NCBI RefSeq assembly: GCF_000017505.1
Contig: NC_009675.1
Span: forward strand, 4,034,501-4,098,500
DNA length: 64,000 nt
DNA from: Anaeromyxobacter sp. Fw109-5
GTDB lineage: Bacteria; Myxococcota; Myxococcia; Myxococcales; Anaeromyxobacteraceae
Reading direction: 5' to 3'
Shown piece by piece: positions 44,717 through 54,412 of this stretch (its first letter is position 1; every line of letters begins with the position of its first letter). Under the pieces are notes generated by a model. That model made no database searches. It saw nothing but the letters and a program-made list of their open reading frames with translations, and was not told where the DNA came from. The position numbers and the translations under genes were made by a program.

Positions 44717-46303
44717 ATGGCCGTCGCCCACCACCACAAGGTCGCCGCTACCGTCGTCGCGCTCGTCGCCACGACCGCCGCGCTGATGCTCTACAAGGTC
44801 CACGCGCTCGGGTACTCGCTCGCGGACATCCTGCCGGTCCGGCAGTACGAGGTCACCTACGCGCTCCGGCTCGACGGACACGGCGGCGACGTCCGCGTGC
44901 GGACCTTCCTGCCCGCGAGCGACGCGCGCCAGACGATCTCCGACGAGCGCACCGAGTCGGCGGGGTTCCACCTGTCGCAGGTGCTCGACGGCCCGAACCG
45001 GGTGGCGACCTGGGTCGGCGCGCAGATCCCGGACGGCGCCGAGATCCGGCACACCGTGCGGATCGTCCCGCGGCGGGTCGCCTACGCGATCCCCGCCGAT
45101 CTCCCGGTGCCCACCTCCTACCCGGCTTCGACGGCGCCGGCGCTCCGGCCGGAGAAGGAGATCCAGGTCGACGCGCCCGAGATCGCGGCCGCCCTCGCGA
45201 GCATCGGGGCGGACCGCGGGAGCGTCATGGAGCGGCTGCGGCGAATCCATGACTACACCCATGGGCTGACGACGCGGCCGTTCAAGGGAACCACCGACGC
45301 GCTCACCGCGCTGCGCCTCGGCGAGGCGAGCTGCAACGGGAAGAGCCGCCTCTTCGTGGCGCTCGCGCGCGCGACCGGCATCCCGGCGCGCCTCGTGGGC
45401 GGCCTCATCCTCGAGACCGGCTCGAAGCGCACCTCTCACCAGTGGGTCGAGGCCTACGTGTCCGGCCACTGGATCCCGTTCTGCCCCACGAACGATCACT
45501 TCGGCGAGCTCCCCGAGCGCTACCTCTCCCTCTACTACGGCGACGAGGTCCTGTTCCGGCACACGGCCGACGTGAACTTCGACTACCGGTTCGACGCCCG
45601 CTCGCAGCTCGTCCCCTCGCCCCGCGCCAAGGCGTCCTTCACGTTCCTCGACGTGTGGGGCCTGTTCGATCGCCTGAAGCTGCCCTTCAGCCTGCTGCGG
45701 ACGATCCTGATGCTCCCCATCGGCGCGCTCCTCACGGTACTCTTCCGGAACGTCGTCGGCATGCCGACGTTCGGCACGTTCCTGCCCGCGCTGCTCGCCG
45801 CCGCGGCGGGCGAGACCGGCGCCGGGTTCGGCGTCCTCGCGGTGCTCATCGTGGTCGCGGCGGTCGCGACCGCTCGCTGGGCCGTGTCGCGGCTCGAGCT
45901 CCTCCACTCGCCCACGCTCGCGATCCTGCTCTGCGCGGTGGTCGTCACCCTCGTCGGCACCTCGATGCTCGCCGAGCGGCTCGGGATCTCCGGGCTCACC
46001 CACGTGACGCTGTTCCCGCTCGCGGTGCTCGCCATCTGCGCCGAGCGCTTCTACCTCTCGCTCACCGAGCACGGGGCGCGCGCGGCCGGCAAGGAGCTCG
46101 CGGGCACGCTCGTCGTGATGCTCGCCTGCTACGTGGTGATGAACTCGCTCGCGCTGCAGGTGCTCGTCATCGGGTTCCCCGAGGTGCTGCTGCTCGCGGT
46201 CGCCGCGAACGTGTACCTCGGGCGCTGGGTGGGGATGCGGCTCAGCGAGTACCGGCGGTTCCGCGGGCTGCTCGGGGCCGCCTCGCCCGGAGGCTCGCCG
46301 TGA
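44717..46303 (+). CDS. transglutaminase-like protein with seven-helix membrane domain
   Basis: This 528-aa protein has one N-terminal helix (residues 9-30), a periplasmic domain to about 310 and then seven helices. The periplasmic part contains a transglutaminase-like core: C206 in GEASCNGKSRLFVALARATGIPARLVGG and H241 in SHQWVEAY. The Asp of the usual WxxxDPT third motif is Cys here (HWIPFC256PTND), so the classic triad is incomplete. This architecture (transglut plus 7TM) is known beside RimK-like ATP-grasp enzymes in other proteobacteria, with unknown function. The GTG of the next gene overlaps its stop. It heads a five-gene envelope set. Confidence 0.82.
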   Translation: MAVAHHHKVAATVVALVATTAALMLYKVHALGYSLADILPVRQYEVTYALRLDGHGGDVRVRTFLPASDARQTISDERTESAGFHLSQVLDGPNRVATWVGAQIPDGAEIRHTVRIVPRRVAYAIPADLPVPTSYPASTAPALRPEKEIQVDAPEIAAALASIGADRGSVMERLRRIHDYTHGLTTRPFKGTTDALTALRLGEASCNGKSRLFVALARATGIPARLVGGLILETGSKRTSHQWVEAYVSGHWIPFCPTNDHFGELPERYLSLYYGDEVLFRHTADVNFDYRFDARSQLVPSPRAKASFTFLDVWGLFDRLKLPFSLLRTILMLPIGALLTVLFRNVVGMPTFGTFLPALLAAAAGETGAGFGVLAVLIVVAAVATARWAVSRLELLHSPTLAILLCAVVVTLVGTSMLAERLGISGLTHVTLFPLAVLAICAERFYLSLTEHGARAAGKELAGTLVVMLACYVVMNSLALQVLVIGFPEVLLLAVAANVYLGRWVGMRLSEYRRFRGLLGAASPGGSP

Positions 46304-47274
46304 GCCTCTTCGCCGCCGCGCGCGGCCGCGTCCGCGCGCTCCTCGCGCGGCGCGAGGCGATCTACGGCATCAACCGCCGCAACCTCGTCCTCGTGTACCC
46401 CAACAACCACCGGCGCGATTACCCGCTCGCGGACGACAAGCTCCTCGCGAAGCAGCGGTTCGCGGAGGCGGGGGTGCCGGTCCCGGAGACGCTCGCGGTG
46501 TGCGACGGGCTCTTCGCCGTGCCCGGCGTCGTCGAGGCGCTGCGCGGACGGTCGCGCTTCGTCGTGAAGCCGGCGAACGGCTCGGGGGGCGGCGGGATCC
46601 TCGTCGCGGGGGAGTGGCTCCCGGACGCCGGCGGCTGGCGCCGCGCGGGCGGCGCCCTCCTCACCCCGCGCGAGCTCTCTCGCCACCTCGCGGACGTGGT
46701 CTTCGGGGTCCACTCGAACCAGCTCGAGGACCGCGCCTTCGTGGAGCGCCGCGTCGAGCCGCACGCCGTGTTCGCGGCGCTGTGGGCCGACGGGCTCTGT
46801 GACGTGCGCGTCATCACCCTGCGCGGCGAGCCGGTGCTCTCGATGATCCGCGTCCCCACCGCCGAGTCGGGCGGGCGCGCGAACCTGCACCAGGGCGGCC
46901 TCGGGATCGCGGTGGACCTCGCCACCGGCGAGACCTCCCGCGCGCTCCACCACGGCCGCGCCGTGGAGCGCCACCCGGAGTCCGGCGCGCCGCTCGTCGG
47001 GCTCGCCCTGCCCCGCTGGCCCGAGATCCTCGACGTGGCGCGCCGGGCCGCCCGCGCGGTGCCGCTCGGCTACCTCGGCGTGGACGTGGTGGTCGACCGC
47101 GAGCGCGGGCCGCTCGTCCTCGAGATCAACGCGCGCCCCGGCCTCGAGATCCAGAACGTCACCGGCCGCGCGCTCGGGGACGCGCTCGCGGCGCTGGAGC
47201 ACGCGCCCGCCGGGCTCACGGAGGCGCGGGCGCCGATCGTGCGCGCTGGCGGCGCGCAAGGGAGCGCCGCATGA
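46300..47274 (+). CDS. alpha-L-glutamate-ligase-like protein (RimK-related ATP-grasp)
   Basis: This 324-aa protein starts at GTG 46300, with GGAGG 6 nt upstream. ATP-grasp features are YPLADDKLLAKQRFAEAGVPVPETLAV, the glycine loop RFVVKPANGSGGGGI, VEPHAVFAALWADGLCDVRVITLRGEPVLSMIRVP and the metal-binding LGVDVVVDRERGPLVLEINARPGLEIQN. RimK relatives add glutamate or similar amino acids to proteins or small molecules using ATP. The substrate of this subfamily is unknown. Overlaps of 4 bp with both neighbours (GTGA upstream, ATGA downstream) make coordinated production with the transglutaminase-7TM and TPR proteins very likely. Confidence 0.88.
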   Translation: MSLFAAARGRVRALLARREAIYGINRRNLVLVYPNNHRRDYPLADDKLLAKQRFAEAGVPVPETLAVCDGLFAVPGVVEALRGRSRFVVKPANGSGGGGILVAGEWLPDAGGWRRAGGALLTPRELSRHLADVVFGVHSNQLEDRAFVERRVEPHAVFAALWADGLCDVRVITLRGEPVLSMIRVPTAESGGRANLHQGGLGIAVDLATGETSRALHHGRAVERHPESGAPLVGLALPRWPEILDVARRAARAVPLGYLGVDVVVDRERGPLVLEINARPGLEIQNVTGRALGDALAALEHAPAGLTEARAPIVRAGGAQGSAA

Positions 47275-49175
47275 ACCCGCTCGTCCTCGACCGCCTCTGG
47301 CCCATGCTCGTGTTCCTCGGCCTGCTGCTCGCGGGGGCGCTCGCGCTCGAGACCTTCGCCGCGCGGCGCGGCAACGACCCGCTCGTCATCTCCATCGCGG
47401 GGGACGAGGTGACGCTGGACGACGACGACGCGTCGGCCTCCGCGGCGACGGCCGCGGATGCGCCGGTCTCGGACGCGCACGCGCGCGCGCGGCGCGCGGC
47501 CCGCCGGGGCGAGCAGGCGGAGGCGCTGAAGCTCTACGAGGCCGCGCTCGCCGCGAGCCCCGGGGCCGCCGTCCTCGAGGAGGAGCTCGGCGCCGTGCTC
47601 CTCGCCGCGGGCGACGCGGCCAAGGCGCTCCCGCACCTGGAGCGCGCGGAGCAGCTCGACCCCGGCGCGCAGCGCGCGCTCCGCGTCGGGCTCGCCCGCG
47701 CGCGCCTCGGCGACCTGGAGGGCGCCGAGCGCGACCTCCGCCGCTCGCTGGAGCGCCGGCCCACCGGCGACGCTCGCGTCGCGCTCGGGAACGTGCTCCG
47801 GCGCCGCGGCGATCCGGTCTCGGCCATCGCGCTGCTGGAGCCGGCGGTCGCCTCCGGATCGAACGAGGATCGCGCCAGGGCGCTCGTCGCGCTCGGCGCG
47901 GCCGAGCTCGCCGCCGGGCGGCGCGAGTACGCGGAGCTCCGCTTCTCGAAGGCCGTCGAGTACGCGCCCGCGCGCGTGGAGATCCTGCTCGGCGTGGCGC
48001 GCGCCTGGCTCGCCACGGGCACCGCTCCCGACGTGCGCCGCGCGGTGCAGGTGCTCCTCAGGGCCGCGGACCTGGCGCCGGACGTCGCCGCGGTCCACGC
48101 GCTGCTCGGGCGCGCCCACGAGCGTGCGGACGAGCCGGGCGCGGCGCTCGAGGACTACGATCGCACCCTGCGTCTCGACCCCACCCACCGGTACGCGCGG
48201 CGCCGCCTGCTGCGGCTCGCGCTCCAGGCGCGAGACTTCGCCCGTGCGCGCCACGAGGCGGACCGGCTCGTCGCCGACCGGGCGGAGGAGCCGGAGCACC
48301 ACTTCCTCGTGGCGCTCGTCGCCGATCGCGACGACCGCGACGACGACGCGCGGCGGGCGTACCGGAAGGCGATCGCGGTCGCCAGGGGCGACTACCCCGA
48401 GGCGTACCTGAACCTCGGCGCGCTCGAGAAGCGCGCGGGCGACGTCGCGGCCGCGCGCGCGGCGTACGGCGAGGCGCTGCGCCTGCGGCCCGATTACGGG
48501 GCCGCCTGGCTGAACCTCGGCAAGCTCGAGGAGGCGGGCGGCGACCCGGGCGCGGCCGAGGCGGCGTACCGCAAGGCCCTCGCGCTCGACGCGAAGTACG
48601 CCGCCGCCTGGCTCGCGCTCGGGCAGCTCCAGTCCGCCGCGGGGAGGTTCGAGGAGGCGCGGTCGTCGCTCGGACGCGCCCTCGTGGCCCGCCCGGGCTA
48701 CGACGCCGCCCAGCTCTCGCTGGGCGTCGCCGCCGCGCGCGCCGGCCGTCCCGACGAGGCCATCGCCGCGTACCAGGCGCTCCTCGCCCGCTCGCCGCGG
48801 AACGTCTCCGCCTGGTACGACCTCGCCCTGGTGCTCGAGGCGGTCTCCCGGCGCGACGAGGCGCGCGCCGCCCTCGCGCGCGCGCTCGCGATCGACCCCG
48901 GCCACGCACCCTCGCTGCGCACCGTCGCCCAGCTCCACCTCGACTCTGGCCGGCTGGCGGAGGCTCGCAAGGCGTTCGAGGAGCTCCTCGATCTCGTCCC
49001 GGGAGATCTGGAAGGCCGCGCCGCGCTCGCGGAGATCTCCGCCCGCGAGGGGAACCGCGCCGCCTGCGACGCAGCCGCGCGCCGCCTCCTCGCCGAGGCC
49101 CCCCAGGACCCGCGCGTCCAGACCCTGCCCGCGCGGTGCGCCGGCCCCCCCGCGCGCACCGTCTCCGCGCCCTAG
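47271..49175 (+). CDS. membrane-anchored tetratricopeptide-repeat protein
   Basis: This 634-aa protein starts at ATG 47271, overlapping the previous stop. One N-terminal helix (LWPMLVFLGLLLAGALALETF) is followed by an acidic linker (VTLDDDDASAS). About fifteen TPR units of 34 residues fill the rest; clear units include YPEAYLNLGALEKRAGDVAAARAAYGEAL and YGAAWLNLGKLEEAGGDPGAAEAAY. The repeats should lie in the periplasm and assemble other proteins. It is the third gene of the transglutaminase/ATP-grasp operon and the likely scaffold for the lipoprotein and barrel encoded next. Confidence 0.85.
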   Translation: MNPLVLDRLWPMLVFLGLLLAGALALETFAARRGNDPLVISIAGDEVTLDDDDASASAATAADAPVSDAHARARRAARRGEQAEALKLYEAALAASPGAAVLEEELGAVLLAAGDAAKALPHLERAEQLDPGAQRALRVGLARARLGDLEGAERDLRRSLERRPTGDARVALGNVLRRRGDPVSAIALLEPAVASGSNEDRARALVALGAAELAAGRREYAELRFSKAVEYAPARVEILLGVARAWLATGTAPDVRRAVQVLLRAADLAPDVAAVHALLGRAHERADEPGAALEDYDRTLRLDPTHRYARRRLLRLALQARDFARARHEADRLVADRAEEPEHHFLVALVADRDDRDDDARRAYRKAIAVARGDYPEAYLNLGALEKRAGDVAAARAAYGEALRLRPDYGAAWLNLGKLEEAGGDPGAAEAAYRKALALDAKYAAAWLALGQLQSAAGRFEEARSSLGRALVARPGYDAAQLSLGVAAARAGRPDEAIAAYQALLARSPRNVSAWYDLALVLEAVSRRDEARAALARALAIDPGHAPSLRTVAQLHLDSGRLAEARKAFEELLDLVPGDLEGRAALAEISAREGNRAACDAAARRLLAEAPQDPRVQTLPARCAGPPARTVSAP

Positions 49176-49192
49176 CCTCGAAGGAACCCTCG

Positions 49193-50392
49193 GTGCTCAA
49201 GCGTCGCCTCTTCACGGTCCCCCGCCTCGTCGTCCTGGCCGTCCTCGCGCTCGCGTGCGGCGGCGGGCAGAAGGGCCCGAGCGCGCCGGGCGTCCCGATC
49301 GATCTGAGCCGCCCGGACGACGCGCTCTTCGCCGAGGGCCTCGCGCTCTACGACGCCGCCAACGCCTCGGCGTCCGAAGCGCGCAGGCTCGGCGCGACGG
49401 ATCTGGCCGCCAGCGCGGCGAAGGAAGCCCAGGCGCTGCAGGGCTACGCGGAGGCGCGGGCGAAATTCGACGCCCTGCCGGTCCGGTTCCCAACCTCCAT
49501 TCGGCTCGACAACGCCGCCTACCTCGCCGGCCGCTGCAGCTACGAGCGCGGGACGATCGGGGGCGATCCGCTGGAGTTCCAGGACGGCGCGCTCCGGCTC
49601 GACGCGATGCAGGTCGCGTTCCCCACCTCGCCGTTCATCGACAACGCCGCCTACTTCGCCGGGCGCGCCCGCTTCCAGCTCGGAGACTACGAGGCCGCGC
49701 GCCTTCAGTTCCAGCGCTCGCTCGCGGCGGCTCCGACCGGACCGTACGCGGACAACGCGCAGTACTTCCTCGGCCGCAGCGACTTCGAGCTGGGGCTCGC
49801 GCTCGCGGGTGCGGGGGACGGCCTCGGCGCCCATGCGAAGCTCGACCTCGCCGAGGCGGAGCTGCCGGCGGTCCCGACCACGAGCGCGTTCTACGACAAC
49901 GCGCAGTACTACCTCGGGCGGAGCTACTTCGAGGAGCCGGTGAACGCGACGGCCACGTTCACCTTGCTCTCCCCGGCGGAGTCGGCCGCGCGCAAGGCCA
50001 ACCTCGAGGCGGCGATCTCTGCCTTCGGGCGCACGCTCGCGGTGCCGGCCGCGACGCACGCGGACTCGGCCCGCTTCTGGCTCGGCCGCGCGCGCTACGC
50101 GCACGCGTTCTACGCGACCGCCGGGCTCGACCCGGCGGACCTCGCCGCGGCGGCGGCCGCGTTCCGGGCCGTCCCGGCGACGAGCACCTACGCGGACAAC
50201 GCGCTCCACTACCTCGCTCGGACGTACGTGAACTCGAGCTGGCGGTACTGCACCACGCCGCACCCGACCGATCCCGCACCCGCCTCGGCCTGCGCCGCCT
50301 ACGCGGCGCTCGCCGCCGGCTTTCCCTCGAGCAGCTACGTGGCGTCGACGGCGGAGTACCTCGCCGCCCAGACCTGCACGTGCACCTTCTGA
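49193..50392 (+). CDS. lipoprotein with six DNAxYxxGR tetratricopeptide-like repeats
   Basis: This 399-aa protein starts at GTG 49193, with AAGGA upstream and a lipobox in VLALAC. Six repeats share a core: LDNAAYLAGRCSYE, IDNAAYFAGRARFQLGDY, ADNAQYFLGRSDFE, YDNAQYYLGRSYFE, ADSARFWLGRARYA and ADNALHYLARTYVN. Spacing is 40-70 residues, as in BamD/YbgF-type solenoids. It probably binds an outer-membrane partner from the periplasmic side, and the barrel gene starts 13 bp downstream. The C-terminus is Cys-rich (CTTPHP, TCTCTF). I do not recognise a characterised family. Confidence 0.78.
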   Translation: MLKRRLFTVPRLVVLAVLALACGGGQKGPSAPGVPIDLSRPDDALFAEGLALYDAANASASEARRLGATDLAASAAKEAQALQGYAEARAKFDALPVRFPTSIRLDNAAYLAGRCSYERGTIGGDPLEFQDGALRLDAMQVAFPTSPFIDNAAYFAGRARFQLGDYEAARLQFQRSLAAAPTGPYADNAQYFLGRSDFELGLALAGAGDGLGAHAKLDLAEAELPAVPTTSAFYDNAQYYLGRSYFEEPVNATATFTLLSPAESAARKANLEAAISAFGRTLAVPAATHADSARFWLGRARYAHAFYATAGLDPADLAAAAAAFRAVPATSTYADNALHYLARTYVNSSWRYCTTPHPTDPAPASACAAYAALAAGFPSSSYVASTAEYLAAQTCTCTF

Positions 50393-50405
50393 CAAGGACC
50401 CCCCG

Positions 50406-51599
50406 ATGATCCGCACCCTCGCCCCCGTCACAGCCCTCGCGCTGCTCCTGTCGGCCTCGCCCGCGCGCGCCGCCGACGAGGCCCCCAGGTGGACCCTCGA
50501 CGCCCGCGCCGGCCTGTACGCGGGCGCCTTCGATGGGTGGAGCGTCCGGCGCGACTCGGGCACGCTCCTCCTCGCCGAGGGGGCGCTCACGCCCGAGCTC
50601 GAGAGCGGCCGCTTCCAGCTCGAGCTGCCCGTCCGCTTCGCGCACCGGCAGACCTTCGGCGCGACGCTCCCCGAGACCACCGGCTCGGTCGGGGTCGAGC
50701 CCGCGTACCGCGTCCTGCGGCGGCTCAAGCTCGGGGCGGAGGCCGGCGTCGGGGGCGCGTGGCGCCCGGGGTGGGACGACCTGTACCAGCGCGACGCGCT
50801 CGGCGAGATGCCGGGGACGGACCGCTACGGCTACTTCAGCTGGCGCGCCGGCGTGAGCCTGTACGCGATCCCGGCGCCGCACCAGCACCTCAGGATCAAG
50901 TACCGCTACGTCTCGTACTCCTACGTCGAGGACCCCGCCTTCGATCCGGCGGCCCCCATGCACCTCACGCCGCGTGACAACGGGCAGCAGCAGCTCGAGG
51001 CGTCGTGGCGGATCCTGGGCGAGCGCTACGCGACGGCGTTCCGGGTGGACTACGTCCACCGGCAGGACTTCACGCTCCTCGCGCGCGACGCGGGGACCGG
51101 CGCGACGAGCGGGAACCCGGAGCAGCAGCTCGACTCGGTGGAGCCGTCCGTGGAGATCGAGCTCGCGAGGCTGGGCGGCGCCGTGGACGTCTCGCTCCGC
51201 TACGGCTACGAGGTGCAGCGCGACGCGTTCCAGGGCTACTACTCCTACCAGGGGCAGCACCCTCGCCTCATCGTGAAGTCTCCCCTCACGGATCGCCTCG
51301 AGGCAGCGCTCCGCGCGGAGGCGTGGCTCCGCGCCTACGGGGCGGACTCGAAGGCGAACACGTCGGACGGGGCGCGGCTCTTCGACCGCCGCTTCGCCCT
51401 CGGGGGCGAGCTCCGCTACGCGCTCGGCGGCGGGCTCGCGGCGCGCGCCGAGGCGGAGTGGGTGACGCGTGACACGAACTATCCGGATTACGTCCCCGGC
51501 GTCTACCCCGCCGGCCGCTACTACGACGTCCGCTGGAGCTACGACAACGCGCGCGTCATCGCCGGCCTCGAGTGGCGCAGGCCGCGCGCGAGCCGCTGA
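50406..51599 (+). CDS. outer-membrane beta-barrel protein
   Basis: This 397-aa protein has a signal peptide ending ARAAD. The sequence is a succession of amphipathic strands with aromatic belts (HLRIKYRYVSYSYVED, AVDVSLRYGYEVQRDAFQGYYSYQGQ, YYDVRWSYDNARVIAGLEW), large enough for a 16-18-strand barrel. It ends WRRPRASR rather than in Phe. No heme or enzyme motif is seen. It is the last gene of the 44.7-51.6 kb operon and would supply its outer-membrane channel or anchor. Confidence 0.75.
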   Translation: MIRTLAPVTALALLLSASPARAADEAPRWTLDARAGLYAGAFDGWSVRRDSGTLLLAEGALTPELESGRFQLELPVRFAHRQTFGATLPETTGSVGVEPAYRVLRRLKLGAEAGVGGAWRPGWDDLYQRDALGEMPGTDRYGYFSWRAGVSLYAIPAPHQHLRIKYRYVSYSYVEDPAFDPAAPMHLTPRDNGQQQLEASWRILGERYATAFRVDYVHRQDFTLLARDAGTGATSGNPEQQLDSVEPSVEIELARLGGAVDVSLRYGYEVQRDAFQGYYSYQGQHPRLIVKSPLTDRLEAALRAEAWLRAYGADSKANTSDGARLFDRRFALGGELRYALGGGLAARAEAEWVTRDTNYPDYVPGVYPAGRYYDVRWSYDNARVIAGLEWRRPRASR

Positions 51600-53245: not shown

Positions 53246-54412
53246 TCACCCCCCGAGCCGCGGGTGCTCCGCGCGCCAGCGCTGGACCGCGTCGAGCCGC
53301 TCCGCGCGCTCGGCGGCGAGGTGCCGCCGCACGGCCGCGTCCAGCCGCGCGTCGAGGTGGAGGTGCGCGCTCCAGGTCTCCGACGGCTCGAACCCGCGCG
53401 AGAGCTTGTGCTCGCCGCCTGCGCCGCCCTCGAACACCTGCTTCCCGCGCCGGATGCACTCGTCGATGGAGTGGTAGAGCGCGACGTTGAAGTGGAGGAA
53501 CGGGTGATCCTCCACGCACCCCCAGTACCGGCCATAGAGGCGGTCGGGACCGGCGAGGTTGAAGGCCATCGCCACGAGCCTCCCCTCGCGGCGCGCCTCG
53601 ACCACCTCGACCGCGTCCGGCAGCCAGGCGATGGCCCGCTGGTAGAACCCGAGGTTCACCCAGCGCATCCCCCACACCATGCGATCGGTCGACGCGCGGT
53701 GGAGGCGATGGCAGCCTCGCGCCCACCCCTCGGGATCGCGCGCCAGCTCGTCTCCGCGGACGGTGCGGATGGCGATGCCCTGGAGCGCCGGCGCGGCGCG
53801 CTCGCGGCGCATCGCGGTCCGGCGCTTCGAGGGGAAGCGCGCGAGGAACTCCTCCGGCGACCGGTAGCCCTCGTTCCGCCAGTGGTACTGGAAGTCCACC
53901 CGCGGCGCGAGCCCCGCCCCCTCCAGCTCGCGCGCCTCCTCCGCGTCCGCGAAGAGCACGTGGAGCCCTCGCGCACCCTCGTCCTCCGCCACCTGCCGCG
54001 CGCCCGCGAGCAGGGTGGCGACCAGCGCGCGCCGGTCCTCGCCGGGCGCGACGAGGACGCGCCGGCCGGTCGCCGGGGTGAAGGGGACCGCGAGGACGAG
54101 CTTCGGGTAGTACGGGATCCCCGCGCGCTCGGCCGCCGCCGCCCACTCCCAGTCCCGGGAAAAGTCTCCGTCCGAGCCGTCCTTCAGGTAGGCGGGCGCG
54201 GCCGCGACGAGGGCCCCGCCCCGGCGCAGCGCGAGGTGGCGCGGACGCCACCCCGAGCGCGGCGCGGCCGACCCGCTCTCCTCCAGCGCCCGCAGGAACG
54301 CGTGGCGCACGAACGGGCTCGCTCGGGCCGGCTCGTGCGCGAGGAGCGCGTCCCACTCCTCGGCCCGGAGCTCCGAGATCGAGGCGTGCGCGGTGAGGGA
54401 GAACCCGGTCAC
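53246..54412 (-). CDS. GNAT-fold acyltransferase of the peptidoglycan-biosynthesis/FemAB-like DUF482 family
   Basis: This 388-aa protein starts at GTG 54412. Family segments are SPFVRHAFLRALEESGSA, PAYLKDGSDGDFSRDWEWA, YYPKLVLAVPFTPATGRRVL, FQYHWRNEGYRSPEEFLARFPSKRRTAMRRER, and LYGRYWGCVEDHPFLHFNVALYHSIDECIRRG. The family (PF04339) has two GNAT-like halves and is often annotated as peptidoglycan biosynthesis or recognition, without firm substrate evidence. TATAAA lies 8 nt before the GTG, suggesting a leaderless mRNA. It is divergent from the tyrosine-degradation operon. Confidence 0.85.
   Translation of the reverse strand: MTGFSLTAHASISELRAEEWDALLAHEPARASPFVRHAFLRALEESGSAAPRSGWRPRHLALRRGGALVAAAPAYLKDGSDGDFSRDWEWAAAAERAGIPYYPKLVLAVPFTPATGRRVLVAPGEDRRALVATLLAGARQVAEDEGARGLHVLFADAEEARELEGAGLAPRVDFQYHWRNEGYRSPEEFLARFPSKRRTAMRRERAAPALQGIAIRTVRGDELARDPEGWARGCHRLHRASTDRMVWGMRWVNLGFYQRAIAWLPDAVEVVEARREGRLVAMAFNLAGPDRLYGRYWGCVEDHPFLHFNVALYHSIDECIRRGKQVFEGGAGGEHKLSRGFEPSETWSAHLHLDARLDAAVRRHLAAERAERLDAVQRWRAEHPRLGG

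Follow-up and report, generated by a model that had tools for sequence, protein, structure and literature searches.

A conserved five-gene envelope operon of Anaeromyxobacter with a Cys-His transglutaminase-like domain, a variant of the RloABC arrangement

What does a membrane-bound transglutaminase-like protein do beside an amino-acid ligase when the genes that follow encode a tetratricopeptide (TPR) protein, a lipoprotein, and an outer-membrane barrel? This question is raised by five genes in a window of 64,000 nucleotides—the whole stretch of DNA analyzed here—from Anaeromyxobacter sp. Fw109-5, whose genome is a single contig of 5.28 Mb. The earlier note on this DNA regarded the transglutaminase and ATP-grasp families as lacking an assigned function, which is outdated: for the rlo operon of Pseudomonas aeruginosa, both phenotypes and a peptidase that cleaves polyglutamate have been described (PMC12239564). 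There, the secreted aspartic peptidase RloA cleaves chains of eight or more Glu, RloB and RloC influence osmotic tolerance, biofilm, and antibiotic resistance, and rlo mutants show cell-shape and hypo-osmotic defects (PMC12239564). Mutants of rloA are rescued by loss of rloB or rloC (PMC12239564), which suggests that RloBC make what RloA removes. The operon described here makes it testable whether, and where, systems resembling RloB/RloC send their product.

Operon layout and conservation

All five genes lie on the + strand between 44717 and 51599, and their spacing is the one that the earlier note had read from the sequence: 4-bp overlaps between genes 1 and 2 (46300–46303) and genes 2 and 3 (47271–47274), a gap of 17 bp between genes 3 and 4, and one of 13 bp between genes 4 and 5. 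The features are as follows.

44717–46303, + strand: gene 1, with an N-terminal transmembrane helix, a periplasmic transglutaminase/papain-like domain, and a 7TM domain (PF01841 and PF14402)
44837–45616, + strand: periplasmic transglutaminase-fold domain of gene 1, residues 41–300; closest solved structure 3isr
45332–45334, + strand: codon of the predicted nucleophile Cys206 of gene 1, which pairs with the 3isr Cys in the alignment and does not vary in the main Cys-His clade
45437–45439, + strand: codon of His241 of gene 1, which pairs with the 3isr His in the alignment and likewise does not vary in that clade
45482–45493, + strand: codons 256–259 of gene 1, with Cys256 and Asn259, from the alignment
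45686–46222, + strand: 7TM domain of gene 1, with short, possibly re-entrant helices (Pfam and structure model)
46300–47274, + strand: gene 2, RloC-type ATP-grasp ligase (PF14397), catalytic residues intact
47271–49175, + strand: gene 3, TPR protein (TPR match) with an N-terminal membrane segment, predicted to be periplasmic
49193–50392, + strand: gene 4, GTG start, lipoprotein (lipobox) with repeats of the DNA.YY.GR type
50406–51599, + strand: gene 5, 16-strand outer-membrane barrel with a signal peptide (structure model)
53246–54412, − strand: FemAB-like gene (PF04339, 449 bits), adjoining the module in all Anaeromyxobacter loci that reach that far

In Pfam, gene 1 scores 144 bits on PF14402 (cut-off 25) and 63 bits on PF01841 (cut-off 23), and gene 2 scores 199 bits on PF14397 (cut-off 31.4); on TIGR02291, gene 2 reaches 262 bits, under the cut-off of 314. 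Gene 4 has a weak YfiO/TPR match and the lipobox LALAC, and the OMP_b-brl match of gene 5 is weak and under its cut-off. Nearly all aligned relatives of gene 4 carry a conserved C-terminal Cys, most of them with a second Cys about 40 residues earlier, which suggests a disulfide in this lipoprotein family. The FemAB-like gene (53246) and a methyltransferase (51661) were rejected as further operon members, as both adjoin the module in Anaeromyxobacter and not in Myxococcaceae.

Eighty loci came out of a search through 84,980 species genomes. The order of genes 1–5 is kept within the genus (L016–L019), in one further family with two loci, titled Myxococcaceae (L032) and Archangium (L033), and in another three Myxococcota families, including L034, with two lipoproteins in L036 and L040. 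Outside the genus, identity across these order-conserving loci (L032, L033, L034, L036, and L040) is 28–74%. A chance arrangement is disfavored because the same order recurs in several Myxococcota families; homology and conservation of the operon are held with high confidence. Among the 27 loci nearest to the window, the TPR gene is present in nearly all, and lipoprotein and barrel are often next to it where the contig extends. The lipoprotein is the least fixed component: it is absent from the operon of A. oryzisoli (L015) and doubled in several loci. Only genes 1–3 are found in genome G163 (L038), with no adjoining lipoprotein or barrel. In one genome (G182), a dead-type transglutaminase/ATP-grasp pair, as defined below (L039), occurs together with a Cys-His-type operon with TPR protein, two lipoproteins, and barrel (L040).

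The barrel follows the transglutaminase closely. When 195 Myxococcota genomes were searched with a profile, its family was matched in 13, each of which carries PF14402 of the Cys-His type, and it had no match in the 175 Myxococcota genomes without PF14402. The central claim of the earlier note—a link of the pair to a specific TPR protein, lipoprotein, and barrel—is thus borne out by the conserved order and by a barrel that never occurs without this transglutaminase among the 195 genomes. The comparison of gene order across Myxococcota, proposed there as a check, likewise went in favor of the operon, as the arrangement recurs in several families.

Farther away, a TPR gene and a barrel-like gene adjoin the pair in Chromatiales (L063), Poribacteria (L065), Binatota (L068), Bacteroidota (L067), and Maricaulaceae (L069/L070), and Saprospiraceae loci hold the pair and a barrel-like gene with no adjoining TPR or lipoprotein gene. 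The barrels of L065 and L068 match the profile of the window barrel with hhalign probabilities of 94–96. The genes of L067, L069, L072, and L076 showed no profile link to it and are termed no more than "barrel-like."

The cysteine site, the ligase, and the missing peptidase

The relatives that have been studied, P. aeruginosa RloB and Shewanella vesiculosa HM2192, have been termed inactive transglutaminases (PMC12239564, PMC12096838). In the alignment of the 80 loci, Cys and His are kept in 37 (Cys-His type) and missing as a pair in 43 (dead type). A tree built on the 7TM part alone—leaving out the Cys/His trait columns—unites 35 sequences, window and loci together, in a main Cys-His clade (SH-aLRT 99), with A. 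terrae and A. soli as the nearest named relatives of the window. The other four Cys-His members, all from Omnitrophota, branch amid the dead type. Cys206 and His241 are present in 35/35 sequences of the main clade and Asn259 in 97%, and the dead-type columns at Cys206 and His241 hold mixed residues (commonest E at 22% and V at 28%, respectively). Hence, the label "inactive transglutaminase" is unsuited to the whole clade.

The structure model of gene 1 (pLDDT 93) is consistent with a working site. Its periplasmic domain matches 3isr, a solved cysteine-protease-like protein, with a VIA Z of 24.7 over 251 aligned residues at an rmsd of 2.8—the top structural match by a wide margin—and Cys206, at a helix start, and His241, at a strand start, pair with its Cys and its His in the alignment. 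The fold also resembles the endo-isopeptidases PeiW/PeiP and the protease LapG. At the third catalytic position, usually Asp and indeed Asp in many relatives, Anaeromyxobacter and Myxococcaceae have Cys256, and Asp, Cys, or Gly occurs elsewhere; Asn259, close to Cys256, is conserved in the clade. Judged from these alignments, the cysteine site probably works, and because the third residue varies among Cys, Asp, and Gly, activity of the domain is graded likely at most. The substitution C206A offers a single point mutation to probe the role of the domain. For the 7TM domain, a weak structural resemblance to NqrD/RnfE was found (Z about 8), and kinship was rejected since such a score is too weak for a helical bundle.

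The ligase shows no comparable split between the types. Residues K47, K90, E149, D262, E275, N277, R279, N25/N28, and H197 of gene 2 are common to both almost without exception, so its chemistry is probably as in RloC. Moreover, transglutaminase-7TM and ATP-grasp parts form a single polypeptide in three Pseudomonadota—the alphaproteobacteria Oceanicaulis (L069:983–3421) and Maricaulis (L070:1709–4147), and a Neptunomonas (L071:926–3349). Shared residues and fusions together imply that genes 1 and 2 work as a unit, and most likely this unit makes the same product class in both types.

The types do differ in their company. An RloA-like gene lies near 29/43 dead-type versus 0/37 Cys-His loci (Fisher p 1.6e-11, a significance inflated by kinship), as found by a regular expression rather than a profile; one further dead-type locus with RloA (L101) was recognized by eye. 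The Pfam family of RloA, PF05618, is absent from the whole window genome; among the 16 Myxococcota genomes that carry a Cys-His-type protein, two have it, on other contigs. The Omnitrophota loci, Cys-His members amid the dead type, are also without RloA and provide a second case. Because the Cys-His type amounts to about one clade plus these Omnitrophota, the mutual exclusion rests on few independent events, and whether the Cys-His domain functionally replaces RloA is an evenly balanced call.

In three places, a gene for a second, secreted transglutaminase-like protein follows a dead-type pair without RloA (L012:6668–7555, L013:7784–8701, and L079:10290–11438). A role as active enzyme in trans was rejected for these proteins, whose catalytic Cys is missing.

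Relation to known systems

By sequence comparison, genes 1 and 2 form a sister type to RloB/RloC of Pseudomonas: a 7TM-transglutaminase (PF14402) adjoins a PF14397 ATP-grasp ligase with the same catalytic residues. Here, however, the Cys-His pair is intact, RloA is absent, three further envelope genes are attached, and gene 1 scores 135.6 bits on the RloB model NF052267, whose cut-off is 900. The operon is hence a variant and not a member of RloABC, since the inactive domain, RloA, and the RloB model score are all wanting.

Other systems share the plan rather than the parts. Synthase-dependent exopolysaccharide export—alginate with AlgK/AlgE, PNAG with PgaA, cellulose with BcsC—combines an inner-membrane producer, periplasmic TPR parts, and an outer-membrane barrel of 16 to 18 strands, as the operon appears to do. 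The operon, in contrast, has an amino-acid ligase and a barrel lumen without charge bias, and a profile search found no glycosyltransferase synthase among its five genes. CapBCAD/Pgs, the Gram-positive poly-gamma-glutamate capsule system, likewise has an ATP-driven amide ligase, a membrane partner, and an extracytoplasmic cutting or attaching enzyme; its ligase is of the Mur type, whereas that of the operon is ATP-grasp, the proteins are unrelated, and an outer-membrane path is added here. RimK/RimB, which glutamylates S6, shares a ligase of the ATP-grasp superfamily, but gene 2 scores 57.3 bits on TIGR00768 against a cut-off of 143.4, and partners and location differ. The open-access literature searched holds no description of the five-gene form, and parts of this neighborhood are possibly mentioned in Iyer et al. 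2009, a work that the literature cites for these amidoligase families.

A possible route across the envelope and its alternatives

The reading we prefer, tentatively and at somewhat less than even confidence, is that the ligase product is processed by gene 1 and delivered to or through the outer membrane by genes 3–5. In the cytoplasm, the gene 2 ligase with its RloC catalytic set would link amino acids—probably glutamate or another acidic one—to one another in a chain or to an acceptor, and the 7TM protein would carry this possibly glutamyl product into the periplasm. There, the intact Cys-His domain may cut, release, or transfer it, standing in for the missing RloA. From there, the TPR protein in the inner membrane, together with the TPR-like lipoprotein and the barrel, would form a path to, or through, the outer membrane. 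In RloABC, by comparison, the product would remain periplasmic and be removed by RloA. Export through the barrel itself is a doubtful step. The fullest version is rather unlikely: a Gram-negative trans-envelope export line, in which an amino-acid polymer or conjugate from an RloC-type ligase is freed by the Cys-His domain and leaves via its own barrel, with RloABC keeping the same product periplasmic for destruction by RloA. Nevertheless, the combination of a preserved cysteine site, the absence of RloA, and a barrel of its own points to a product that leaves the cell and can be sought in its surroundings.

No polymer would need to be exported if the ligase/7TM pair tagged an envelope protein—lipoprotein, TPR protein, or barrel—and the Cys-His domain trimmed the tag, much as RimK tags ribosomal protein S6 with amino acids. 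Gene 2 belongs to the RimK superfamily, candidate substrates lie in the same operon, the co-occurrence of the barrel is strict, and the lipoprotein has its conserved C-terminal Cys. Yet the ligase is cytoplasmic and the supposed substrates are exported, the same ligase occurs with RloA and without any of the three proteins, and the Saprospiraceae loci have neither TPR nor lipoprotein gene adjoining, so that we consider this explanation unlikely.

Alternatively, the ligase might supply a building block for remodeling of peptidoglycan or a surface polymer, with the Cys-His domain acting on peptidoglycan peptides or attaching the polymer, and TPR protein, lipoprotein, and barrel tethering the outer membrane to the wall. 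This would agree with the cell-shape and hypo-osmotic defects of Pseudomonas rlo mutants (PMC12239564) and with the similarity to PeiW/PeiP and LapG. Fold resemblance does not give the substrate, however, and a Pfam search found no peptidoglycan-binding domain in the five proteins, which leaves this explanation quite unlikely. In a third alternative, the Cys-His domain would bind a ligand without catalysis, as a sensor by which the operon governs envelope permeability via the barrel. This would suit the variable third residue and the dead relatives that still function in Pseudomonas (PMC12239564), but it is improbable given invariant Cys and His, with Asn259 at 97%, in a clade across several phyla with the rest of the domain mostly diverged.

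For the preferred delivery across the outer membrane, the barrel model gives a mixed picture. Its 16 strands form a fold found in ordinary porins and export barrels alike. A positively charged lumen as in AlgE is expected for an acidic polymer; such a basic lumen was not found for gene 5, whose lumen charge is balanced (24 K/R and 23 D/E, approximate numbers as strand faces were set by parity), which speaks against a simple channel for an acidic polymer. Further points against the preferred reading are Cys256 at the third catalytic position in Anaeromyxobacter, the G163 locus without lipoprotein and barrel, the missing lipoprotein of A. oryzisoli, and the PF05618 genes of two Cys-His-type Myxococcota genomes. 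Anaeromyxobacter, the genus of the window, also lacks the polybasic tails seen in relatives: in seven loci (L032, L033, L040, L051, L053, L055, and L064), long Lys/Arg runs such as KRKKKKKKRKKK lie between signal peptide and barrel. A filter for polybasic tails, applied to 241 called neighboring proteins, was passed by barrel genes only, and in these seven relatives the basic N-terminal tails weakly favor an acidic partner.
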